From NCBI GenBank assembly GCA_002239025.1, contig MPNM01000005.1, forward strand, positions 62,001 through 126,000: a stretch of DNA of 64,000 nucleotides. The letters are read 5' to 3'. Under the pieces are notes generated by a model. It was not told the origin of the DNA and searched no databases. It saw nothing but the letters and a program-made list of their open reading frames with translations. Shown here one piece after another: positions 662 through 20,757 of this stretch. Each line of letters begins with the position of its first letter. Position 1 is the first letter of the stretch. The position numbers and the translations under genes are program-made. The DNA is from Chloroflexi bacterium bin125. GTDB lineage: Bacteria > Chloroflexota > Dehalococcoidia > Bin125.

Positions 662-3187
662 TGCGCCGGAACCACGCTCCAGCTCACTGCTGACCAACCA
701 GGCATCGACCGGCGCATCCGCCGGCACGACCCAACGGGACGTATCACTGCGACTGCCACCGACCGGCACAAAGGTCGCCTGCACCAGGCCGGCGCTCAGG
801 CGTCGCGCGTGGATCCTGCCGAGTTCAACTCCATCCACCCGTATCGGAGCGGTTCGAAGCCAAACATTCTCGGGCGCATTGACCGACAGCAATCGCTGGC
901 CCGGCAGCGCTCGTTCACCATTGGTCAGATCGACGCCGAACTCGACCCTGCCATCCTCGAGCACGCGAGCCAGCAGCCTGTTAGCGGAGACTGACGGCTC
1001 GGCCACTGGATCATCGACGGCCTCCGGCACGGGAATTGTGGGATTCACCGAGAGGTCGAGGCCGGTCAATAGCAGATCGTGGTCTTCACCGGCACTCACC
1101 GCGCCGCAGTGCGCACGGTCCAGCATGGCGCCATAGATCGGCGACACAGCGCGCAGCGCGTCGTCCGACCATGACGACTCTCCAGCGCCGTCGCAATCGA
1201 TGCCGTCGGTGAATCGCTCCAGCGCAGCAGCAACGTCCGGATCGTCCCAGCCGTCCTCGGCTTCACGCTTCATTATCACGAGCACCGCAGCCTCAACGAG
1301 GCGCGAATCCACCTGTTCGGCAAAAGCGAGTTGTGCGTGGACCTGAAGCGCCTCAGAGGCGGTGATTACCTGATTTGGCTCTGCCAGATCGTTCCAGGTT
1401 CTGACGAACTGTTCGATCCGCCGCGCTGCAGCGCGGCCGGAGCGCACGACGATCTCTTCGGCATCATCGACGCTCTGGAACTCCTGGGGATCGAATCGGG
1501 CTCGCACCAGGATCTCGCTATGCGATGCGTTGAGAGTCGCTGCCAGCGCATCAAGCGTCGGCGCGGAAGCAGACGCGACCTCAGAGAGCGGCTGTCCGCC
1601 ACGTTCTGTCAAAGAGAAGAGCGACTCGGCTGTCGCCGAGAGGGATTCGAGCGTGGTGTTGAAGTTGTCCAGCACCACGCTGAGCACGCCGGCGGCGTAG
1701 GTCGCTCGCGAGCTGATCTCGGGTTCGAGACCGTCTTCCTGCTCCTCAGATGCTCCGTCGGTCGAATCGTCTGCCGACTCTTCGGTTGACTCCTCGTCAG
1801 ATTCGCCGTCAGATTCGCCGCCTCCGTCGGCCGACTCCTCACCCAGTGCTGAAACCGGTAAGACCTTGGTCGTGACCATGCCTTCTTCGTCGGCGATGGC
1901 GCTGACCTGGTACTCCATGCCGTCAACGCTGACCGTGACCGGGTCGAATTCAATGCCGCTCAAGACAATGACGGGGCGGCTCAGCCGGTGTCCGCTGATG
2001 CTGTCGCCCTCTTCGTTGTAGACCAGCACCTCGAGCATCACATCTGTGTGGCCAGTCCGCCATCTGAAGAGGCCGTCGAATGGATGCAACTGCGACAACG
2101 ATTGACTACCAAATGCGGCGACCGAATCCGATGTGTGATACGACGCGCCAACGCCCCATCGCTCGTCGTCTCCTTCGCCGGTACCGATCCTCGAAGTGCG
2201 CCAGTCGGAGATGTACGGCCAGCGCACTCGGACTTGAACGCTGCCGTCAGTCGTCGACAACGCGGCTTCGCCAAGATTGCCGACTCGGTAGTTGATCTCG
2301 AATGGCAATCCCAGGACCACGCGATCAGGCGCTTCGATTGCTTCAAGCTTGATGATCGGACCGTCTTCTTCGCGAGTAATCTCGAGCCGATAGTCAGCCT
2401 CGAACAGGTTCTTCAGGTCACGATCGCCCCAGTTGGTGGTCTCGATCGTGTACGTGCCAGCACCGAGTACACGGACGATGCGCGAGTTGAATCCTACCCC
2501 GCCGTCATCGTCGCTCTCCAGCAGCGCGCCGGCAGCGTCGAGCAGGTAGACGTACGAATCTGCCAGATCTGAGGTGAGATCGATCCGCAGCCTTGTCGTC
2601 TGAGTCACTTCAAAGCGATATCGCTGGGATGATCGATCTGGACGGAACTCAGACTCGCAACCGAAGTGCGACCAACTCGACTCGGCAAAGAGAGCGTCTT
2701 CCAGGATGCCAAGGTCGACAACATCATCACAGCCGGTCACGACCTGCAGTGTCAGATCGAATGATCCAGTATCCCGTCCCGACCATCCGAGTGCACTCGC
2801 TTCGATTCCATACGTTCCTGCGGGCAGTGATCGCTCTATCCGTGCGTCGCCCTCGCCGCCGGTATCGTCATCCGAGTCGATCAACGTGCCGTCTTCAGAT
2901 TGCAAGTAAAGCAATGCGTCGCGCTGTGGTGAGCTCAGGTCGATCCGCACTTCCGCTTCTTCAGCCAGCGTGAATCGGTACAACACGCCCGGACGATTCT
3001 CGAGGAATTGCGACACGTCGCACTCGCCGGCTGTCCATGTGCCGGTCGTACTGAGCGTGTCGCTCAGTTCGCCCAGCTCGATGGGCTGCGGACAAGGATT
3101 CGAAACGTCTTGGGCCCCGGCTGGCTCCCAGGCAGCGAGCGCCGCAATCAGAATGACGATCGACGACAGGGCCAGGCATCTTCGCAT
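542..3187 (-). CDS. Secreted protein with two PPC domains and a duplicated C-terminal domain
   Basis: 881 residues with a cleavable signal peptide (MRRC..., Ala-rich core, cleavage near AGA-QD). Two bacterial pre-peptidase C-type (PPC) beta-sandwich domains follow at about 32-147 and 153-272, recognisable by YRFTL..EVRIDL and LPAGTYGIE / GAGTYTIE. A CARDB-like segment comes next, then a very acidic Ser/Glu/Asp linker around 450-490, a helical region, and at about 730-839 a domain with two ARxLxxGxxEF-type halves that also ends the nuclease at 15366-16442. No catalytic domain is recognised; a surface or binding role is inference. The last 42 residues extend beyond the shared domain and are encoded antisense to the end of hisG. 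Confidence 0.8.
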   Translation of the reverse strand: MRRCLALSSIVILIAALAAWEPAGAQDVSNPCPQPIELGELSDTLSTTGTWTAGECDVSQFLENRPGVLYRFTLAEEAEVRIDLSSPQRDALLYLQSEDGTLIDSDDDTGGEGDARIERSLPAGTYGIEASALGWSGRDTGSFDLTLQVVTGCDDVVDLGILEDALFAESSWSHFGCESEFRPDRSSQRYRFEVTQTTRLRIDLTSDLADSYVYLLDAAGALLESDDDGGVGFNSRIVRVLGAGTYTIETTNWGDRDLKNLFEADYRLEITREEDGPIIKLEAIEAPDRVVLGLPFEINYRVGNLGEAALSTTDGSVQVRVRWPYISDWRTSRIGTGEGDDERWGVGASYHTSDSVAAFGSQSLSQLHPFDGLFRWRTGHTDVMLEVLVYNEEGDSISGHRLSRPVIVLSGIEFDPVTVSVDGMEYQVSAIADEEGMVTTKVLPVSALGEESADGGGESDGESDEESTEESADDSTDGASEEQEDGLEPEISSRATYAAGVLSVVLDNFNTTLESLSATAESLFSLTERGGQPLSEVASASAPTLDALAATLNASHSEILVRARFDPQEFQSVDDAEEIVVRSGRAAARRIEQFVRTWNDLAEPNQVITASEALQVHAQLAFAEQVDSRLVEAAVLVIMKREAEDGWDDPDVAAALERFTDGIDCDGAGESSWSDDALRAVSPIYGAMLDRAHCGAVSAGEDHDLLLTGLDLSVNPTIPVPEAVDDPVAEPSVSANRLLARVLEDGRVEFGVDLTNGERALPGQRLLSVNAPENVWLRTAPIRVDGVELGRIHARRLSAGLVQATFVPVGGSRSDTSRWVVPADAPVDAWLVSSELERGSGASRDDLVQRVTDQSAGAGTAQFGDHLTLLALIENNLQRNP

Positions 3188-3295
3188 TTGAACGGTCCAA
3201 TCAGTAGCATATTATGTCCGCTACACATCCTACTTCGCGTTCCTGCGACGGAACATCTGGGCTCTTGGCTTAAGACTGATTCATATCCTCCGAAT

Positions 3296-3450
3296 CCCCT
3301 CTCCCCTCCTTGCAGGGGGAGATGTCACGGAGTGACAGAGGGGGGTCGGCTGATAATGACCAGATAGGGCGCCCGAACAGCGGACCCCCCTGCCGGAGCC
3401 TGCCCCTGCGTAGGCAGGGGGCATCTCCCCCGCAAGGGGGGAGAGGGGGA
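3296..3450 (+). repeat. MITE-like GC-rich repeat, copy 1
   Basis: Copy of the dispersed element. It opens with a pyrimidine-rich arm reading CCCCTCTCCC, then a hairpin GATGTCACGGAGTGACAG, and ends with the complementary arm CGCAAGGGGGGAGAGGGGG. The left flank (AGACTGATTCATATCC) resembles the left end of the copy at 34405-34582, while the right flank (GTGTTTCAAGGGTCTCC) matches the left end of the reversed copy at 39795. It fills most of the 361-bp gap between the two secreted-protein genes; nothing else is seen there. Confidence 0.8.
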
Positions 3451-3548
3451 GTGTTTCAAGGGTCTCCACTAGTGAAGGAGGTTGAGAGTGATACCTCGGT
3501 CACGAAAAGGACAAGCTTTCAACGGCAGTCCGAGGCAAAACCCTACTG

Positions 3549-4670
3549 TTACTGTTCGTCCCCGTCGGCAATCGGCTCAGGATCCTCGCCTGGAGGTTGG
3601 GGGCGGAAACGCTCGGGCACGTCATGGCGAGGATCGCCACGGTGGAAATCGCTCCAACAGTCGATCTCGCCCTCGATGGTGATAGCGCAGGCGGCCTGGT
3701 CGCCGAACAGGCTGACATAGGTGCGGGCGGCGGTGGTCTCCCTGTCGGGTCCGCCTTCATACAGTGTCGTAAACGGGATCGCCCACGATTGGAAGCGAAT
3801 CAGATCTGGCGGGCAATACTCGACATCCGCGTGAAAGAAGTGGGAGCACCAGTGATGGGCCTGGTGGCACTGCAATGACCCGTCATCGACGATGCCACAG
3901 CCTTGCGCGCCAATGACGTGGACGTTGCGGAAGACCTGGTTGTAGGGAGCCGGCGCCCCAGGCGCAGGAGGAGAGTCATAAGTGCGGCAGCGGACATCGC
4001 CCTCGGCAGTCACGCCGCAAAGTCCGTTGCCGCTCGGAGCGATACGCGTGAATGGTCCGGCGTCGGAGACGAACTGCTCAAAGGTCATTCCACCCCAACA
4101 GGTCGTGCGGCCCTCCGAGTCGAGAGCGCAGAACTCTCGGCCGGTGCTAATCAGCTGGACGAAGCCGCTGTCGGTCGGTGCAGTTCCGGGCGATCGCAGT
4201 TGTCCCCAGCAGGAGATAGCGCCCTCAGTCGTGAGCGCGCACGCATAGTGCCGCCAGGGATGGACCACGACTTGAACGAGGTCGCTGCGCTCAGGAGGCA
4301 TGAGTTGATCGATACCGGAGAGGCTGAGGTCCGCGTCAGGATCGCGGTCGAGGATGTTGTCGACCGTGGATCGCACATAGGCATAGCCGGCGCCCCAACA
4401 GACGACCGTCGACTCGACCGTGATGGCGCAGCCATCAGTCGGACCGAGACCCAAGTCAGTGAAAGCTCCGTCGGGCACATCCCGAACGAGGGGAATCTCG
4501 AATCCCCAGCAGGAAATCTCGCCAGTGTCGATGAGGGCGCATGCCGCAGTGGAACTGATCTCGATCTGGACTGGTGTCTCGGCACGGGCCGGAACCATGA
4601 GCAACAGGGCAAGGAGCACAAACGCAGCAAGCGGCGCGAGAACGCGGACAGCAGTCGAGAATGGCGGCAT
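3549..4670 (-). CDS. Secreted RCC1-like beta-propeller protein
   Basis: About 373 residues from the ATG at 4670, chosen because a typical signal peptide follows it (hydrophobic run LAAFVLLALLLMVPARA); the frame is open upstream to 4778. The mature part carries seven repeats of the form C-[AG]-[LI]-x3-G-x-[ILV]-x-C-W, for example CALIDTGEISCWG, CALTTEGAISCWG and CALDSEGRTTCWG, with later blades degenerate (CRTY, CHQA, CWSD). Seven such repeats fit one RCC1/BLIP-II-type seven-bladed propeller. The regularly spaced Cys pairs suggest a disulfide in each blade, which is consistent with an exported protein. No ligand or enzymatic role can be assigned. Confidence 0.82.
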   Translation of the reverse strand: MPPFSTAVRVLAPLAAFVLLALLLMVPARAETPVQIEISSTAACALIDTGEISCWGFEIPLVRDVPDGAFTDLGLGPTDGCAITVESTVVCWGAGYAYVRSTVDNILDRDPDADLSLSGIDQLMPPERSDLVQVVVHPWRHYACALTTEGAISCWGQLRSPGTAPTDSGFVQLISTGREFCALDSEGRTTCWGGMTFEQFVSDAGPFTRIAPSGNGLCGVTAEGDVRCRTYDSPPAPGAPAPYNQVFRNVHVIGAQGCGIVDDGSLQCHQAHHWCSHFFHADVEYCPPDLIRFQSWAIPFTTLYEGGPDRETTAARTYVSLFGDQAACAITIEGEIDCWSDFHRGDPRHDVPERFRPQPPGEDPEPIADGDEQ

Positions 4671-8662: not shown

Positions 8663-9835
8663 CTATTCCGTCATCTGCGCCACTTCAAAGTCGCGCAGAT
8701 CGAGCGACTGTGCCTGCGTCAGCACGACTCCCAGAAGGCGCGACGACCCGAGCAACAGTCGCGCTCGCACCAGTTCCTCTTCCGAGACGTCGGCTCGCGC
8801 CATCAAGACCACGCCGGCCGCCGCAGGCGCAACGTTGAGCGTGGAATCGTCTTCGAGGGAATCGGTGAGCAGCAAGACATAGCCGTTGGGACGAACAGCG
8901 CGGAGAGCTGCGCGCAGAATCATCTCGGACCGGTCAACCACACTCCATGGCGCTCCGGCCAGCCAGTTCGGAGGAGTTGAGTAGCTCAATTCGAACGCTG
9001 GACGCCGACTATCGAGCCAGATCACGGGATTCCCGCGGGCCGCGAGCGTTTGCGCGGCCTGAATCAGTGTCGAGGTGACCGCCGAGGCGTCATCAAGCGG
9101 CGTAAGCGCTATCACTCCGGAGAGAGGATTGAGGGCATTGGCGATTAAGACGGCGTCATCCCGGGCCAATCCGCGCTCCAGGGTGCCCGAGACCGTCAGC
9201 CCGGACGACTGTTGCGGTGCCTGACCTGCAATCTGCTCGGCTTCTGCAGAGACCACCGCCAGCGGTTTGAGACCGATGCGGCCCAGCCGGCCGAGAGCTG
9301 TTGATGGACCACTCGACTGCCGCGCGAATACCCAGGCGAATGCGAGCCCTGCGGTCAGGCCAATCGCCGAGGCCCACGCCGCTGTCCATCCGGTCGCAGG
9401 GGCTACTTTGCGTGCGCCCGGTCGGACCAGACCGAGCAGGTCGAGTCCTGCTTCGTCGCCGTACCGGACATGTGCCTCATCCACCGCGGCGTGCGCCAGC
9501 GACAAGGCCAGTGCCTCAGCGTCCGACTGCCGCGATGCTCTGACCGTGACACGAATCAGCGTGTCAGTCACATTGACGGCCACGCCGTCAAGCTCTGGCA
9601 GGCCGTCTTCGCTCGCCAGCATGCCCGATGTCGCCGACTCCTGGACGGAGCGCTCCATGACCAGGGCCGCATACTCCGACGGCGTCCGACCTTCCCGCGC
9701 CCACAGGTGGACATCGGCGTCCCAGGCGACGACGGACGACTGAGATGCAATCACCGCGATTAGCGCAGCCACAACCGCCGCCAGGATTGGCAGCCACCAG
9801 GCAAACCCATTGCGCAACGCCAGGGACCAAGTCAC
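8663..9835 (-). CDS. Wzz/BY-kinase-like membrane protein with degenerate P-loop
   Basis: 390 residues from a GTG start. A transmembrane helix at about 12-31 and a second at about 151-170 bracket a periplasmic/extracellular segment, the layout of polysaccharide chain-length regulators (Wzz). The C-terminal half follows the bacterial tyrosine-kinase ATPase fold: GVIALTPLDDASAVTST aligns with the Walker A strand and loop, and PVIWLDSRRPAF with the Walker A' strand. The GK(S/T) of the P-loop is missing (DASAVTST), although Asp275 of the A' motif remains. There is no C-terminal Tyr cluster. It is probably non-catalytic; a role in exopolysaccharide assembly is inference, since no polysaccharide genes are adjacent. 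Confidence 0.65.
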   Translation of the reverse strand: MTWSLALRNGFAWWLPILAAVVAALIAVIASQSSVVAWDADVHLWAREGRTPSEYAALVMERSVQESATSGMLASEDGLPELDGVAVNVTDTLIRVTVRASRQSDAEALALSLAHAAVDEAHVRYGDEAGLDLLGLVRPGARKVAPATGWTAAWASAIGLTAGLAFAWVFARQSSGPSTALGRLGRIGLKPLAVVSAEAEQIAGQAPQQSSGLTVSGTLERGLARDDAVLIANALNPLSGVIALTPLDDASAVTSTLIQAAQTLAARGNPVIWLDSRRPAFELSYSTPPNWLAGAPWSVVDRSEMILRAALRAVRPNGYVLLLTDSLEDDSTLNVAPAAAGVVLMARADVSEEELVRARLLLGSSRLLGVVLTQAQSLDLRDFEVAQMTE

Positions 9836-10194: not shown

Positions 10195-13100
10195 ATGCGA
10201 AATGGGCAATCCTGGCAAGTACGGCGAATCGAGCGCCTGGGCCTATTGATCATGTTTCTGCTGGCATTGTTGTTAGCAATGGCCACTCAGGTGACGCCGG
10301 TCCTGTCAGGTGAAACACGCATCCACCTCGACGTGCATGTTGATCCTTCGTATCCGGAGATCGAGCAGCTTCTACAACAGGCAGGCTTCGAGATTGAGCT
10401 ATCTGTGCCCGAACTGGGACGCTGGCAGGGTTGGCTTCCGTCGCACATGTTGGACGAGTTGCGCAACCTGGACGGTGTCATTTCGGCCGAGAGTCCGCAG
10501 TACGGCAGTTTCGCCTCCGGCAGCGCTCTGACCGAAGGTGACGAAGCGCTGCACGCCGCGTCAGCTCGGACCAGGTTCAATGTCGACGGCTCCGGCATTC
10601 GCGTCGCGGTGATCTCTGATGGCATCGTCGGGCTACAACAGGCCCAGCGGGCCGGCGAAGCGCCCAAGCTGACTGAGGCTCGGGCCTTCGGCGCCGGCAG
10701 TCTAAATCGCGGCCAAGAGGGCACCGTGATGATCGAGATCGTTCATGATCTCGCGCCGGGCGCGGCGATTTCATTCGCCGCCGTCACAACCGACCTCGAC
10801 CACATCGCCGCCGTTAACCACTACGCCCAACGAGTCGACATCATCGTCGACGATGTTTCCTACGCGTTCCCGGCCGACCAACGCAGCGACGTATCAGTCA
10901 ACACCACGAGAGCATTGCGTCATCCCGAATGGCCGCTCAGGTTGTACGTCACCGCCGCTGGTAACTGGGCGGAGTCGCATTGGGCCGGCGAATGGCGTCC
11001 CGGAAACGACGGCCTAATGATCGGCCTCGCCAATCCTGGAGCGACTCATCGCTTCAATGGCGCCACCGGGGCGGGCATGTTGTACGGGGCCGGCAATGCG
11101 TTCACTGTCGAACCGGAATCTCACATCCGCCTGGCGCTCTTCTGGGATGACGAATGGGGACGCTCGACGAATGATTACAACCTCTACTTGATGTCGGGGG
11201 TTGGGACGATTCTCGCTTCAAGCGAGACCACGCAGGGCATTGGGGCAAACAGCCACATGCCTCGCGAACACCTGGAGTATGTCCACGAGGGCGAAGCCAT
11301 GGAGTTGTACGTTGTGATTCAGAATCACAACAACGATGCCGAGCCCGTTTCGTTCGATCTCTTCGCCTTCCATGCTGCCGGCGTACAGCTGAGATTGCAC
11401 CACCGCACACCGACGGGCAGCATCCTGGCCCAATCCGACGCGCAAGATGCTCTCACTGTCGGCGCTGTCAACGTCGGCCGCGACACCGTCGCTCCGTACT
11501 CAAGCCGTGGACCGACTGTCAATGGCGCATCCAAGCCCGACTTGATCGCCGTTGACCGGGTGACAGTCTCGGACACCACTCACTTCGCTCCCAGATTTTC
11601 TGGATCCTCGGCCGCCGCTCCCCATGTCGCAGGGGTCGCCGCATTGTTGCTCGAGGCGCAACCGGCGCTACTAGCCGCAGACGGGGGCACTGCCCGTCTG
11701 GAACGACGTCTGATCCGTGACTTGTTGATCGACACTGCGCAAGACCTCCCACCTGAGGGTCACGATCCGGCCTCCGGAGCTGGGTTGATTAACGCCGACG
11801 CCGCGATCGAGGCAGCGACCAGTCGGATCGCAGTGATCACGTCCAACGCCGACCGCGGACCTGGCACGCTTCGAGAGGCGCTGGACGGAGATGCGACGAT
11901 CATCCTGTTCCAGTCCAATGGCCCCAATCGCACTATTCGGCTGGAGTCGCCGTTGCCACTCCTTCAAGGCGGACTGACCATTGATGGTCGCGCCTGGACA
12001 CTGAATGCGTCCGAGGTTGATGTCGGCATTCGACTTGGCGATGAGACGGAAATCTGGGGACTGACCGTGCGCGGTGCGAACGACGTTGGCATCTCGGTCG
12101 AGGGCGATGAATGTCAACTCAACAAGATCACGGTGGACGCAAACGAGGTCGGCATCAGGATTGCTGGTGAACGGGCGACGATTGACGGCGCGATGGTGCT
12201 TAACGGCCGTACGCATGGCATCGAGATCATCGACGGTGCGTCGGCCTCCATCTCTGCCAGCATGATCGAGTCCAATCGCGGCGCCGGTGTCCGGATCTTC
12301 CCGAATGCCGGCGATGTGAACATCGGTCCGCCGGGTGAACCGCCCGCGCCGACACTGGCAAGCAGTCTGCAGCTTCCCGTCGGACAACTTGACTCAACGT
12401 TCCCTCTACCTCGAAGCGGACTCAGTCACTCGATCAACGGCACCGTCAGTATCGACGGACTGCCAGCGCCGACTGATACGACTATCAATCTCTATCTCGA
12501 TCGCCGGCTGGCGGCGTCGGTCGCAGTTGACGAATCTGCGCGGTTCGTCGCGACTGCGACCGGGCCCGGAACCGAACTACGCTTCGCAGTCGATGGAGTA
12601 CCGATCGAGCATCGAGTCGAGTTCCAGGCAGGAATGGAGACATCAATCATCCTTCGTGCGGTCAGCCGAGACACCTTGCAAGCCGCCGATCGCTACGGCG
12701 ATCACCTGACCGGAGCGAACCTCTTCCGCAACAATCTGGCCGGAGTCATGATCATGCCGTCGGTTGGATCACCGGCGGGAACGCGGTTCGTCTGGGGCAA
12801 CTTGATGCAGCGCAACCGGCTGAACATTGAATCGGACCTTGCTCAGCCGGTGATCGACGGGTTGACCTGGAGCGCGTCCGGCCTCAGTGTCAGCGGCGAG
12901 GCCAGCGGCGCGGCCCTCGTCCACCTCTACGCCGGTCCTCCAGCCACCAGGCGATACGCGGCATCGACCACCGTCGTCAACGGTCGCTTTGATTTTGAGC
13001 ACGTCAGTGTCGACCTGATGGCCTCGGAGTTCTCGGTGATCGCGCACTCGGCAGAGGGACAAGCGAGCGCAGAAAGCGACGTGCATCGCGAGCCTCCGGC

Positions 13101-13620
13101 TGGCGCCATCACCAGCATCACGCCTGACACCGGCTTTATCGAAGGTGGCGAGGCGGTACAGATCTGCGGTGTCGGCATCTCGACCGATACCTCCTCGCCC
13201 CGCGTCTGGTTTGGCAATCTATCCGCACGGGTCGACTTCTGGTCGGGCGAGTGCGTTGGTGTCACGACTCCGCAGTCAACTGCCGGACTTACTGACATTG
13301 CCTTGCTTCTCGGCGGGGCTCGGCCGATCATCGCTACTGATGCGTTCGAGTATCGAACCGTGCGCGTTGTGCGCCTGCATCAGGGTTGGAACTTTGTCAC
13401 CTGGTCGGGTCCCGACACCCGAGTCACCAGTGCTTTCGCCTCGCTGGCCGGAGTGACGCTCCGCGCCTACGCATGGGATGTCGATGCTCAGAAGTGGCAG
13501 GTATTCGCGACAGACCTGCCGCCGCAAATCAACAGCCTGCGCAGTGTCAGCCACGATCAGCCGTTGTGGATCTTCCTGGAGACGCCCGATGTTGATTGGT
13601 CTCAGCCAGCCCCCGACTGA
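10195..13620 (+). CDS. Secreted subtilisin-fold (S8-like) protease with beta-helix and IPT domains
   Basis: 1141 residues. The N-terminal signal/anchor covers about 15-38. A peptidase S8-like domain spans about 130-535, with Asp142 in VISDG, the oxyanion Asn257 in AAGN and the nucleophile Ser472 in GSSAAAPHVAG. Where S8 enzymes have His in HGT, this reads QEGT with Glu175, and a DD pair (219-220) follows in IIVDDVSY. A right-handed beta-helix region starts near LREALDG (about 560), an IPT/TIG-like domain lies near 985-1060, and the last 85 residues form a GWNFVTW-type module of unknown role. Exported and probably surface-exposed. If active, the triad would be non-standard. Confidence 0.83.
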   Translation: MRNGQSWQVRRIERLGLLIMFLLALLLAMATQVTPVLSGETRIHLDVHVDPSYPEIEQLLQQAGFEIELSVPELGRWQGWLPSHMLDELRNLDGVISAESPQYGSFASGSALTEGDEALHAASARTRFNVDGSGIRVAVISDGIVGLQQAQRAGEAPKLTEARAFGAGSLNRGQEGTVMIEIVHDLAPGAAISFAAVTTDLDHIAAVNHYAQRVDIIVDDVSYAFPADQRSDVSVNTTRALRHPEWPLRLYVTAAGNWAESHWAGEWRPGNDGLMIGLANPGATHRFNGATGAGMLYGAGNAFTVEPESHIRLALFWDDEWGRSTNDYNLYLMSGVGTILASSETTQGIGANSHMPREHLEYVHEGEAMELYVVIQNHNNDAEPVSFDLFAFHAAGVQLRLHHRTPTGSILAQSDAQDALTVGAVNVGRDTVAPYSSRGPTVNGASKPDLIAVDRVTVSDTTHFAPRFSGSSAAAPHVAGVAALLLEAQPALLAADGGTARLERRLIRDLLIDTAQDLPPEGHDPASGAGLINADAAIEAATSRIAVITSNADRGPGTLREALDGDATIILFQSNGPNRTIRLESPLPLLQGGLTIDGRAWTLNASEVDVGIRLGDETEIWGLTVRGANDVGISVEGDECQLNKITVDANEVGIRIAGERATIDGAMVLNGRTHGIEIIDGASASISASMIESNRGAGVRIFPNAGDVNIGPPGEPPAPTLASSLQLPVGQLDSTFPLPRSGLSHSINGTVSIDGLPAPTDTTINLYLDRRLAASVAVDESARFVATATGPGTELRFAVDGVPIEHRVEFQAGMETSIILRAVSRDTLQAADRYGDHLTGANLFRNNLAGVMIMPSVGSPAGTRFVWGNLMQRNRLNIESDLAQPVIDGLTWSASGLSVSGEASGAALVHLYAGPPATRRYAASTTVVNGRFDFEHVSVDLMASEFSVIAHSAEGQASAESDVHREPPAGAITSITPDTGFIEGGEAVQICGVGISTDTSSPRVWFGNLSARVDFWSGECVGVTTPQSTAGLTDIALLLGGARPIIATDAFEYRTVRVVRLHQGWNFVTWSGPDTRVTSAFASLAGVTLRAYAWDVDAQKWQVFATDLPPQINSLRSVSHDQPLWIFLETPDVDWSQPAPD

Positions 13621-15172: not shown

Positions 15173-15365
15173 GTTGCTTCCTCACCCGGATTCACATTCT
15201 AGGCCGCTGACGACAGGTGCCTTCCTACAAGGATGTTCATCCTAACTGCGATTGCGTTTGCTATGTGAAACACCGGTCGTACTTGACTGCAAACGCCGCT
15301 CTCCTCAAGATACGTAAGTTCGCATTCTCTAGTGCGAACACTTCCCGTATCTCATGGAGAACGAC

Positions 15366-16442
15366 ATGCATGTTTCGCCGACGTTCGAGATCAGCTTTAG
15401 CAGATTGCTGGTCTCGGCGATTGCTCTGGTCGTCGCCGGGTTGGGAGTTTGGCTAGCCATCGACCTGGCACTGAGCCACGGAACTTGCAGCACCCACCAC
15501 GAATACCGCGTCTACGACGGCACCCATGACGGAGATCGCGATGGAGTCGGCTGCGAGACGCTGCCCGAACCGCCTGGCGGCCCACCTTCATCTTCCTCGT
15601 CTTCTTCGTCTTCATCTTCGACACAATCTGCAACCGGTGGCGATTACGACCGAGACAACTGGAGCTTCAACTCCACGTCAGCTCGGGCTGCGCTGATGTG
15701 TGATTCTTCTGAGCACGTCGACCACATCGTCGCCCTGAAAGAGGCCTATGACTCCGGTGCGGCAACTTGGACGAACACGCGCAAGTCTCAGTTTGCCAAC
15801 GATCAGGAGAATCTCTGGTGTCTCGATGCATCGGTGAACATCAGCAAGTCCGATCATGACCTGGCGGAATGGAGCGGTGGCACCTGCGAACAACGCAAGC
15901 ACATCGCGGCCGTCACCCGCACCATCAAGGCGAAGTACAGCCTGAGCACTGACGCTGCCGAAGCCAACGCCAACAACGTGGCGCTGTCCGCGCAATGCAG
16001 CACATCGACACGTACCGAGTCGACAACAGCTTCCGACTCGTCAACGTCTACGAGTCAGTCGACGCCTTCTCAACCGACACCTGCAGACCCGCAAACCGTG
16101 GATGATCCTGGAGATCCGTTCCCGGTCGGCCGGATTGTCGCGCGGCGTCTTGCGAGTGGAAGCACCGAGTTTGGCTATCGCGTTGAAGACGGAGAGCTCG
16201 TTCTACCGAGCAAGCGGTTCTTCCCCACTTCCGCGAGAGTGGGACGGTGGCTCAACTCGACTCCGATCAAAGTGGATGACGTGGGGATCGGAAGGATTAG
16301 CGCCCGCCTACTCAAGAGCGGACGAATCGAGTTCTCGTTTGTGCCAACGGGTGGCGAGCGGTTCTTGCCAAAGGGCAGATACTTCCCTGTGAGCAGCGAC
16401 GGTCGCTGGTTGAGAAGCACGTTGATCGACATTGACTCTTGA
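15366..16442 (+). CDS. Secreted HNH (DUF1524-like) nuclease with Ser-rich linker and duplicated C-terminal domain
   Basis: About 358 residues. The ATG at 15366 has GGAGA 5-6 nt upstream and is preferred to the one at 15354. A signal/anchor helix (LLVSAIALVVAGLGVWLAIDLAL) precedes an excalibur-like motif DGDRDGVGCE and a run of about 11 Ser. A DUF1524/GmrSD-type HNH nuclease region follows, with EHVDHIVALKEAYDSGA, FANDQENLWCLD and NISKSDHDLAEW carrying the metal-binding His/Asn/Asp residues. After a Ser/Thr/Pro linker, the last about 105 residues form the same two-part domain found at the end of the PPC protein at 542-3187. An extracellular nuclease role is inferred. Confidence 0.82.
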   Translation: MHVSPTFEISFSRLLVSAIALVVAGLGVWLAIDLALSHGTCSTHHEYRVYDGTHDGDRDGVGCETLPEPPGGPPSSSSSSSSSSSTQSATGGDYDRDNWSFNSTSARAALMCDSSEHVDHIVALKEAYDSGAATWTNTRKSQFANDQENLWCLDASVNISKSDHDLAEWSGGTCEQRKHIAAVTRTIKAKYSLSTDAAEANANNVALSAQCSTSTRTESTTASDSSTSTSQSTPSQPTPADPQTVDDPGDPFPVGRIVARRLASGSTEFGYRVEDGELVLPSKRFFPTSARVGRWLNSTPIKVDDVGIGRISARLLKSGRIEFSFVPTGGERFLPKGRYFPVSSDGRWLRSTLIDIDS

Positions 16443-19356: not shown

Positions 19357-19405
19357 TCGAGAGGCACTACAGACGGCGGAACGATTGGCTAGACCATCCA
19401 AGGCT

Positions 19406-19435
19406 CCTGTAGGGGCGACCCTTGTGGTCGCCCGT
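19406..19435. repeat. REP hairpin, family C (at the 3' end of the transposase)
   Basis: CCTGTAGGGGCGACCCTTGT plus GGTCGCCCGTG. GGGCGACC (19413-19420) and GGTCGCCC (19426-19433) form a perfect 8-bp stem around a 5-nt loop. Other copies: 40104-40200 (an inverted pair), 48322-48350 and 57434-57459. Confidence 0.85.
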
Positions 19436-19705
19436 GCTGGAGGGAATCGCCAGTCCCAAGGTTCTCAGGATCGGTTTCCCACATTGAAGGATTTGCCTGA
19501 ATGTAGCTTCGAATCAGGTCGAGGGACCGCTCGTCCCTGACGACGTGTTCAAAGTAGTTGCGTTGCCATAGCCGCTTGTTGAACGGCCTCCAGCGAGATT
19601 CTCTGACGCCTCTGGTGTAGGCCACCGTCGTAAGCGACTTGAATACGCCGACAACCGTTCCTAGGGTGACTTCGCGCATCGTCCTGACGCGATGTGAGAG
19701 GGGAC

Positions 19706-19732
19706 GGGTGCCCACAAGGGGCGCCCCTACAG
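19706..19732. repeat. REP variant inside the transposase coding region
   Basis: GGGTGCCCACAAGGGGCGCC followed by CCTACAG, the reverse orientation of the family C consensus with compensating changes. It keeps the transposase frame open. Confidence 0.75.
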
Positions 19733-20031
19733 AATCGTTTTCTTCGGTGATTGACAACACAGCGTGGACATGGTTGGGCATGACAATGAACTCGTCGAGG
19801 GCGACTCCTGGGAATCGTTCGGGAAGTGTAAGCCAAAGCCCATTGATCATTTCGCCTGCCGCGCTCAGCTGCAATTCTGCATCGACTATCTGTGCAAACA
19901 GCGAGAGCCGATGCTGAGTGACGATTGTGATGAAGTACGGACCTGAATGGGAGTAGTCAAAGTGGGCGTGACGCAGAGAACGTCGCTGCGGGCGTTCTGT
20001 CATTGAGGAGTGGCGCAACCGACAAGTTCGC

Positions 20032-20757
20032 TCATTCGGCGTACTCTCTCGCGAGGCCATCGAGCAGATCAACCATCAGGTGCGGCGCTGAGAGAAATGG
20101 CGAGTGATCGGTTGCCCACTCGACAACTCGATCCGCTCGACGGGCGAGGGCTCGCTGACCCTCAGCGAGCAATGCCTGATCTTCGGTGCAGACGACGTAT
20201 GTCGTGGTGATCTTGTTCCAGGCAGTGTCTCGCGGCGCGTCGAAGGGAATGGCCGCGTCGTCGCGGACTAGCTGAGTCAGCGCGTGCTCGTAGTCTTCGT
20301 CCGAGCACTGGTTGTAGAACGCGTAGCGGATCTTGTCCGCCTGGACGGTTGTCGAGCCGTCCTCGCCGGCGATTACAGCGGTCGCCAATTCGGGGTTGAC
20401 GAAGTTGTCGGGCATCGAACCGTCGGTATTGGGCATGATCGCCGTCAGGTAGACAAGGTGCTTGACGTTGTCATTGCCCAGCGGCGCCGTCGTGATTGGC
20501 ACGCCGCCAAACGAGTGACCAAGCAGGATCGCGGGTCCCTCGACTTCGTCCAGCGCGGCACGCACGATCGCTTCGTTCTCGGCCGAATCGGTGACGCCGC
20601 GCAGCGTCCCGCTTGCCTCATGCATACGGCGTCGCTCAACGGCGACCACTGGTACGCCTCGTGCTTCAAGACCTTCAACGACCTTGTCAAAACACCATGG
20701 ACCGTGCCAGGCGCCGTGCACCAACACAACCGTCGCCGGAGCTGCTGCTGTCGTCAT
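20032..20757 (-). CDS. Alpha/beta hydrolase, esterase-like
   Basis: 241 residues. VVLVHGAWHGPWCFDKVVEGLEARG gives the oxyanion-hole HG motif, GHSFGG carries the nucleophile Ser, and the C-terminal ATDHSPFLSAP contains the expected catalytic His. The overall pattern resembles the salicylate-methylesterase/hydroxynitrile-lyase branch, but the substrate is unknown. It follows the carboxymuconolactone decarboxylase-family gene by 21 bp on the same strand, so the two are likely co-transcribed in a small catabolic unit. Confidence 0.88.
   Translation of the reverse strand: MTTAAAPATVVLVHGAWHGPWCFDKVVEGLEARGVPVVAVERRRMHEASGTLRGVTDSAENEAIVRAALDEVEGPAILLGHSFGGVPITTAPLGNDNVKHLVYLTAIMPNTDGSMPDNFVNPELATAVIAGEDGSTTVQADKIRYAFYNQCSDEDYEHALTQLVRDDAAIPFDAPRDTAWNKITTTYVVCTEDQALLAEGQRALARRADRVVEWATDHSPFLSAPHLMVDLLDGLAREYAE

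Follow-up and report, generated by a model that had tools for sequence, protein, structure and literature searches.

Can a subtilase act as a protease when a glutamate stands in the place of its catalytic histidine? This question is raised by a locus of Chloroflexi bacterium bin125, encountered in a 64,000-nucleotide stretch of DNA (contig MPNM01000005.1, positions 62,001 to 126,000); this whole stretch is referred to as the window, and all coordinates given here are positions within it. The open reading frame (ORF) at 10195-13620 on the forward strand encodes a protein of 1141 amino acids and was confirmed as real; its product is the protein that the original prediction, made from the letters alone, had taken for a subtilase in which the HGT motif of the catalytic His reads QEGT. 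Both observations were borne out: the protein matches Pfam Peptidase_S8 (E 2.7e-18; profile positions 160-288 of 288 only, i.e., the serine end), and QEGT occupies the HGT place of MEROPS family S8, with Glu175 aligning with the His of all 54 His-type relatives analyzed. This gene is the single match to the subtilase domain in the bin125 genome. The original prediction further envisaged a mixture of the active sites of subtilisins (S8) and sedolisins (S53), in an enzyme that may be acid-adapted or inactive. The analysis described here finds the Glu-type site throughout a bacterial family, and argues for a protease that is probably active.

Active-site residues of the subtilase and its relatives

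A domain search covering 301 genomes of Chloroflexota, the phylum of bin125, found 129 with matches, in many cases to the serine end alone, and in a whole-domain alignment of 27 proteins from the phylum the HGT position was Glu in 3 and His in 24. A wider set from further phyla was aligned to a single profile, yielding 190 rows, of which 112 were used; the other 78 were left out as identical copies or for a letter missing at one of the six tested positions. Proteins with Glu at subtilisin position 64 are designated E-type and those with His at this position H-type, residue 175 of the window protein thereby defining both types, and the subtilisin numbers 32, 64, 124-125, 155, and 221 were transferred via the His-type relatives.

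All 58 complete E-type rows carry Ser at position 32 (Ser141; 10615-10617), Glu at 64 (Glu175; 10717-10719), Asp-Asp at 124-125 (Asp219-Asp220; 10849-10854), Asn at 155 (Asn257; 10963-10965), and Ser at 221 (Ser472; 11608-11610), whereas the 54 H-type rows invariably carry Asp at 32, His at 64, x-Ser at 124-125 (with x never being Asp), Asn at 155, and Ser at 221. Mixed states were encountered in none of these 112 non-identical proteins, the E- and H-type residues co-segregating at positions 32, 64, 124, and 125. Instead of the Asp-His-Ser triad of S8, Ser141, Glu175, and Ser472 are found in 58 of 58 E-type rows, and the S8-like oxyanion Asn257 (AAGN) and the nucleophile Ser472 (GSS) are in place, as originally predicted. 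Asp142 (10618-10620), which had been assigned as the S8 catalytic Asp, was rejected in this role: in the gap-free alignment (VAVI-S-D versus VAIV-D-x) Ser141 holds position 32 and Asp142 lies at position 33, a column with Asp in only 55 of the 58 E-type rows, Ser, Arg, and Gly accounting for the other three.

Among 361 well-filled columns, ten are invariant in the 58 E-type rows (Gly132, Ser141, Glu175, Gly176, Asp219, Asp220, Asn257, Phe468, Gly470, and Ser472), and six of these ten are Ser141, Glu175, Asp219, Asp220, Asn257, and Ser472. The pairwise identity of these proteins has a median of 0.33 and a lowest value of 0.19. For the two closest same-genus E-type pairs the nonsynonymous divergence (dN) amounted to 0.045 and 0.088, at a synonymous divergence (dS) of 0.48 and 0.49, respectively; for the window subtilase compared with its nearest relative, dS has reached saturation. 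One of two peptide search patterns contained VDDV, and the loci obtained with it are biased to DD because the pattern itself holds this motif; for 32 of the 58 E-type rows, the initial match came from whole-domain or profile searches that did not use this pattern, the profile itself being built from E-type rows. A sequencing artefact was ruled out by the 58 non-identical rows, and the E-type matches listed carry no internal stop. Judged from the aligned sequences, the Glu-type site is a family trait, i.e., one concerted change that is common to the whole bacterial family.

Predicted fold and candidate catalytic mechanism

AlphaFold2 modeling of a 465-residue domain, comprising the catalytic domain (10513-11826), resulted in a mean predicted local distance difference test score (pLDDT) of 86.1 and a predicted template modeling score (pTM) of 0.85. 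Alignment of the model by VIA-align gave a Z of 35.3 to 9ues_B (root-mean-square deviation 2.2, 271 residues aligned), with subtilisin BPN' at a Z of approximately 33 and the 50 listed chains spanning 32.8-35.3, placing the predicted model in the subtilisin fold of clan SB. Sedolisin chains were absent from the 50 rows listed by Foldseek and VIA-align, which is not read as evidence, and a search among viral folds returned mostly viral subtilases in its top rows and mostly unrelated beta-rich proteins in the lower ones. Glu175 starts a predicted helix, and His64 of subtilisin likewise begins a helix; a predicted strand, separate from the Glu175 helix, ends with Asp219, and Asp220 is the next residue. 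In a model that included the propeptide region, residues 42-99 (10318-10491) adopt a beta-alpha-beta-beta-alpha-beta topology, which is the order of the I9 propeptide fold.

Passages of PMC11593635 name residues 32, 64, 125, 155, and 221 of subtilisin as five key residues, and describe the peptides 31-34, 64-65, and 123-125 as one closed 'AcidBaseCHO zone' with the acid, the base, and Ser125; for serine-carboxyl proteinases, these passages state that the acid is shifted in sequence and that its place in space is kept. Because the changes at positions 32, 64, 124, and 125 all fall in this zone, and the Ser and the oxyanion Asn are kept, a Glu-Asp geometry appears plausible.

From the alignment positions, their co-segregation, the predicted fold, and the predicted propeptide-like topology, we infer that the protein is probably a secreted, active serine-carboxyl protease on an S8 scaffold. 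In the proposed mechanism, Ser472 would attack the peptide bond, Glu175 would take over from His64 as general base and acid, one or both of Asp220 (at the Ser125 site) and Asp219 would be hydrogen-bonded to Glu175 in the manner of the helix Asp in sedolisins, and Asn257 would form the oxyanion hole together with the Ser amide. The Glu would be used as it is in sedolisins, the acid partner residing on a beta strand here and on the Glu helix there. Asp220 is favored over Asp219 as the candidate partner because it takes the Ser125 position. Compared with subtilisin, the simplest reading would be an exchange of acid and serine, from Asp32/Ser125 to Ser32/Asp125, while His is replaced by Glu. With a Glu as the base, the enzyme may work in the acid to neutral pH range, and the acid adaptation considered in the original prediction is possible. 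The N-terminal propeptide-like domain may act as a folding aid and inhibitor that would be cleaved off at maturation.

Several observations weigh against this mechanism. The alignment underlying the AlphaFold2 model is shallow (26 rows), the propeptide-inclusive model is the weaker of the two (mean pLDDT 77.8, pTM 0.70), and residues 42-99 were not covered by any solved structure among the matches listed. Furthermore, 195 solved sequences were matched and none of the best 60 is named as E-type. When aligned with a solved subtilase by HMMER, the DD pair in one case came to stand two columns earlier; the gap-free alignment through the H-type proteins is preferred over this one. Finally, the best Foldseek matches of the model include pseudoproteases, rows 1-11 all being clostridial Csp proteins, i.e., the CspB protease and chains of CspA and of the CspC pseudoprotease.

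These matches, and the loss of both the His and the Asp of the S8 triad, speak for a pseudoprotease, in which a domain with a dead site would function in binding or as a scaffold, like clostridial CspC. This explanation is nevertheless considered unlikely: at a dead site drift is expected, yet the Ser, the Asn, the Glu, both Asp residues, and Ser141 are invariant in 58 of 58 rows at 33% median identity, identical replacements occur in different phyla, and dN is well below dS in the two close pairs. The inactivity that had been entertained originally is thus disfavored because of strict co-conservation and purifying selection.

A somewhat smaller probability is given to an enzyme that is active without being a general protease, either as a ligase or transamidase, or in the processing of its own or a partner's precursor. 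Its large beta-helix, TIG, and C-terminal additions would suit such a function, as would the patchy spread of the E-type profile matches, which at E 1e-30 were found in 15 of the 296 genomes sampled from Bacteroidota and in 4 of the 299 from Pseudomonadota, a few of them being H-type; these counts are lower bounds because scoring was limited to the top few candidates of each genome. However, none of the features found points specifically to transamidation, and secreted subtilases commonly carry multi-domain extensions.

Relationship to sedolisins, origin, and distribution

The serine-carboxyl protease proposed above shares its Glu with sedolisins, and a set of these was assembled for comparison from the same phylum via the pro-domain PF09286, which yielded 12 loci. 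Of these, 10 passed the motif filter, and removal of two near-copies and a row of odd length left 7 for the comparison. These seven were aligned with the E-type and H-type proteins and 13 classical S8 proteins. In all seven, positions 64, 68, 125, and 155 are occupied by Glu, Asp, Ser, and Asp, respectively, and position 32 is Glu in six and Ala in one. The window subtilase resembles them in the Glu at the His64 place, which is in the same column in 7 of 7, in the fold of the clan, and in the GTS nucleophile, and it differs from them in two defining residues: the sedolisin acid at Glu+4 is replaced by Met (53 of the 58 E-type rows), Ile (3), or Leu (2), and the oxyanion Asp by Asn (58 of 58). 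The sedolisin oxyanion Asp (SGD/AGD) aligns with Asn257 in 7 of 7 rows and the columns of the DD pair align with 'xS'; therefore, the DD pair is not its counterpart. The pair that had been noticed after QEGT is thus present as Asp219-Asp220, and its assignment to a strand like that of the sedolisin oxyanion Asp does not stand. Likewise, the predicted S8/S53 mixture holds in outline, with the fold, the oxyanion Asn, and the Ser of S8 and an S53-like Glu with an extra acid, and its bookkeeping of residues needs correction in part, as Ser141 has replaced the Asp of S8, the DD pair occupies the Ser125 site and not the oxyanion site, and the Glu+4 Asp of S53 is Met in 53 of 58 rows.

With subtilisin, the window protein shares the fold, the Asn oxyanion residue, a GTSxxxP-like Ser motif, and a propeptide-like domain, and it differs by the absence of Asp32 and His64 and by the replacement of Ser125 by Asp. 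A compact segment (E/H ... E/Q ... AP) is common to E-type, H-type, and S53 proteins, in contrast to a longer loop in classical S8. The likeness to compact-loop H-type S8 proteins of Chloroflexota and other phyla is apparent from HGTAVAEIVHDMAPGA versus EGTAMLEIIHDIAPGA and extends over most of the domain, e.g., in L007 at query residues 13-433 of 447, the difference being that these proteins keep a normal Asp-His-Ser triad and Ser125.

A true sedolisin of family S53 is very improbable. The Glu at 64 and the compact E...AP segment are indeed held in common with all seven sedolisins, and a tree in which E-type and S53 proteins were constrained to one clade scored 3.48 log units above the quick free tree and is not rejected (p-AU 0.63). 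Nevertheless, the absence of the Glu+4 Asp and the oxyanion Asp, the two defining residues tested, led to rejection of S53 membership; in addition, position 125 is Ser in 7 of 7 sedolisins, unlike in E-type proteins, and Pfam Peptidase_S8 was matched by all 26 members of an alignment (A3) whose domains had been cut too short to show a PF09286 pro-domain. No match to this pro-domain (Pro-kuma_activ) was obtained in the window subtilase up to E 0.1, nor was one obtained in the bin125 genome. An ordinary Asp-His-Ser subtilase in which another His fills the site, e.g., His184 (10744-10746), which lies nine residues past Glu175 in the same predicted helix, has a negligible probability, since Asp32 is gone too and His184 is conserved in only 47 of the 58 E-type rows (replaced in 11) and is also found in 17 of the 54 H-type rows that already have the catalytic His.

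A quick tree, from which the catalytic columns had been removed, was constructed from 90 rows (43 of the 58 E-type, 27 of the 54 H-type, 7 S53, and 13 classical S8). The E-type proteins form one clade (SH-aLRT 98) among the compact-loop H-type proteins, which do not form a single clade themselves. S53 falls in the same part of the tree, with a support of only 84 at the fork uniting it with the E-type and two H-type rows. In this tree 35 of 87 inner branches have a support below 80, and the E-type rows L172 and L092, as well as the S53 stem (1.76), are long; given the length of the S53 branch, kinship of E-type and S53 proteins is no more than a lead. A tentative scenario, the chances of which are rated at less than even, is that the E-type is the living sister of the sedolisins and represents a third natural solution for the catalytic triad within clan SB. 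A single His-to-Glu change in a compact-loop His-type subtilase might then have been followed by placement of the acid partner in either of two sites, the Glu helix in S53 and the Ser125 strand in the E-type, in the latter case with a reciprocal exchange of Asp and Ser. If this were true, the transition from S8 to S53 would be traceable via living proteins.

The 58 E-type rows carry eight taxonomic labels, i.e., Chloroflexota, Planctomycetota, Thermodesulfobacteriota (including a metagenome-assembled genome (MAG) of Dadabacteria), Patescibacteria, Pseudomonadota, Bacteroidota, Actinomycetota, and Sumerlaeota, some of which may be wrong because several are single metagenome bins. In the Planctomycetota sample an E-type row was found in at least 9 of 199 genomes, this census also being a lower bound. 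Among the Pfam and NCBIfam models matched, none is specific for the E-type by name; CDD model cd05562 ('Peptidases_S53_like') may cover the family, and a literature search for this number gave no match. Genomes of the phylum can contain several divergent compact-loop H-type copies, such as the five in G065 (L009, L032, L033, L037, and L038), and the H-type compact-loop copies are the nearest relatives of the E-type. Two Corynebacterium MAGs of approximately 2 Mb each (G313 and G316; L091/L094) hold six and eight E-type profile matches, some of which are adjoining or partial, which suggests local expansion or decay. A search of plasmids returned seven records; six are Haloarcula S8 proteins at 26-29% identity, and on the Chroococcidiopsis plasmid NZ_CP097482.1 (L095) a cut-off E-type subtilase is located at 3090-3824, as a frame of 249 amino acids that is annotated as hypothetical. 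The latter gene may be broken because the next locus tag is absent from the gene table.

Domain layout, neighboring genes, and significance

The 1141-amino-acid product reads as a multidomain subtilase that is probably secreted and whose active site is of the Glu type. Its probable signal peptide (approximately residues 1-38; 10195-10308) displays a basic start followed by a long hydrophobic stretch. Between the Asn and Ser segments of the catalytic domain, predicted strands indicate a beta-rich insert with approximate limits (around residues 262-399; 10978-11391). The C-terminal part contains a possible right-handed beta-helix region (residues 620-705; 12052-12309; Pfam Beta_helix at 19.7 bits, below the cut-off of 25.9), an IPT/TIG domain (13108-13317; Pfam PF01833, E 2.1e-10), and an 84-amino-acid region at the end (13366-13617) with four other matches in the bin125 genome (E 2.1e-13, 6.4e-7, 2.4e-4, and 5.2e-4). 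These four matches, two of which are weak, are located in three other ORFs, one ORF holding two of them, and the region is perhaps a surface or sorting domain common to several ORFs. The beta-helix, TIG, and 84-amino-acid regions would serve to localize the enzyme to the cell surface or to a substrate.

Elsewhere in the window, the protein of approximately 390 amino acids encoded upstream of the subtilase gene (8663-9832, reverse strand) had no Pfam match at 0.001 and resembles proteins of the membrane-linked chain-length or tyrosine-kinase type. In the 362-amino-acid protein encoded at 15354-16439, a match to GmrSD_C (E 6.2e-07) is preceded by a hydrophobic stretch at the N-terminus and by a run rich in serine. 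At 19389-20072 on the reverse strand a transposase-type protein of the Y1_Tnp (IS200-like) family is encoded (Pfam E 6.1e-07), which is possibly a REP-associated transposase.

A subset of prokaryotic subtilases that resemble sedolisins was reportedly described by Siezen, Renckens, and Boekhorst in 2007 (Proteins 67:681-694), homology modeling reportedly having located their catalytic Asp in a topologically similar position, but on a beta strand rather than on the Glu helix. Measured against this description, the window subtilase has Glu175 at the His64 place and its acids off the Glu helix, Asp219 ending a strand and Asp220 being next, both in 58 of 58 rows, and it apparently belongs to the kind predicted at that time. 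The present analysis itself is the source of the tree, of the range of phyla, and of the D32/S125 swap that involves Ser141. Designation of subtilases as D-H-S, ED-S, and E-H-S appears in passages of papers that cite the 2007 study. Among the matches listed in the open literature of PubMed Central, no description of a Glu/strand-Asp subtilase was present in titles or abstract openings, and no report of E-type activity or structure was found. Another replaced triad is that of the E-H-S subtilase SprP of Pseudomonas aeruginosa, for which passages of PMC3937732 report protease activity; in SprP, Glu stands in the place of Asp and the His is kept, which distinguishes it from the E-type.

The E-type would represent a third geometry, found in several phyla, with a signature that is cleaner than can be shown to be in print. 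The family could show how a protease exchanges its base and its acid.

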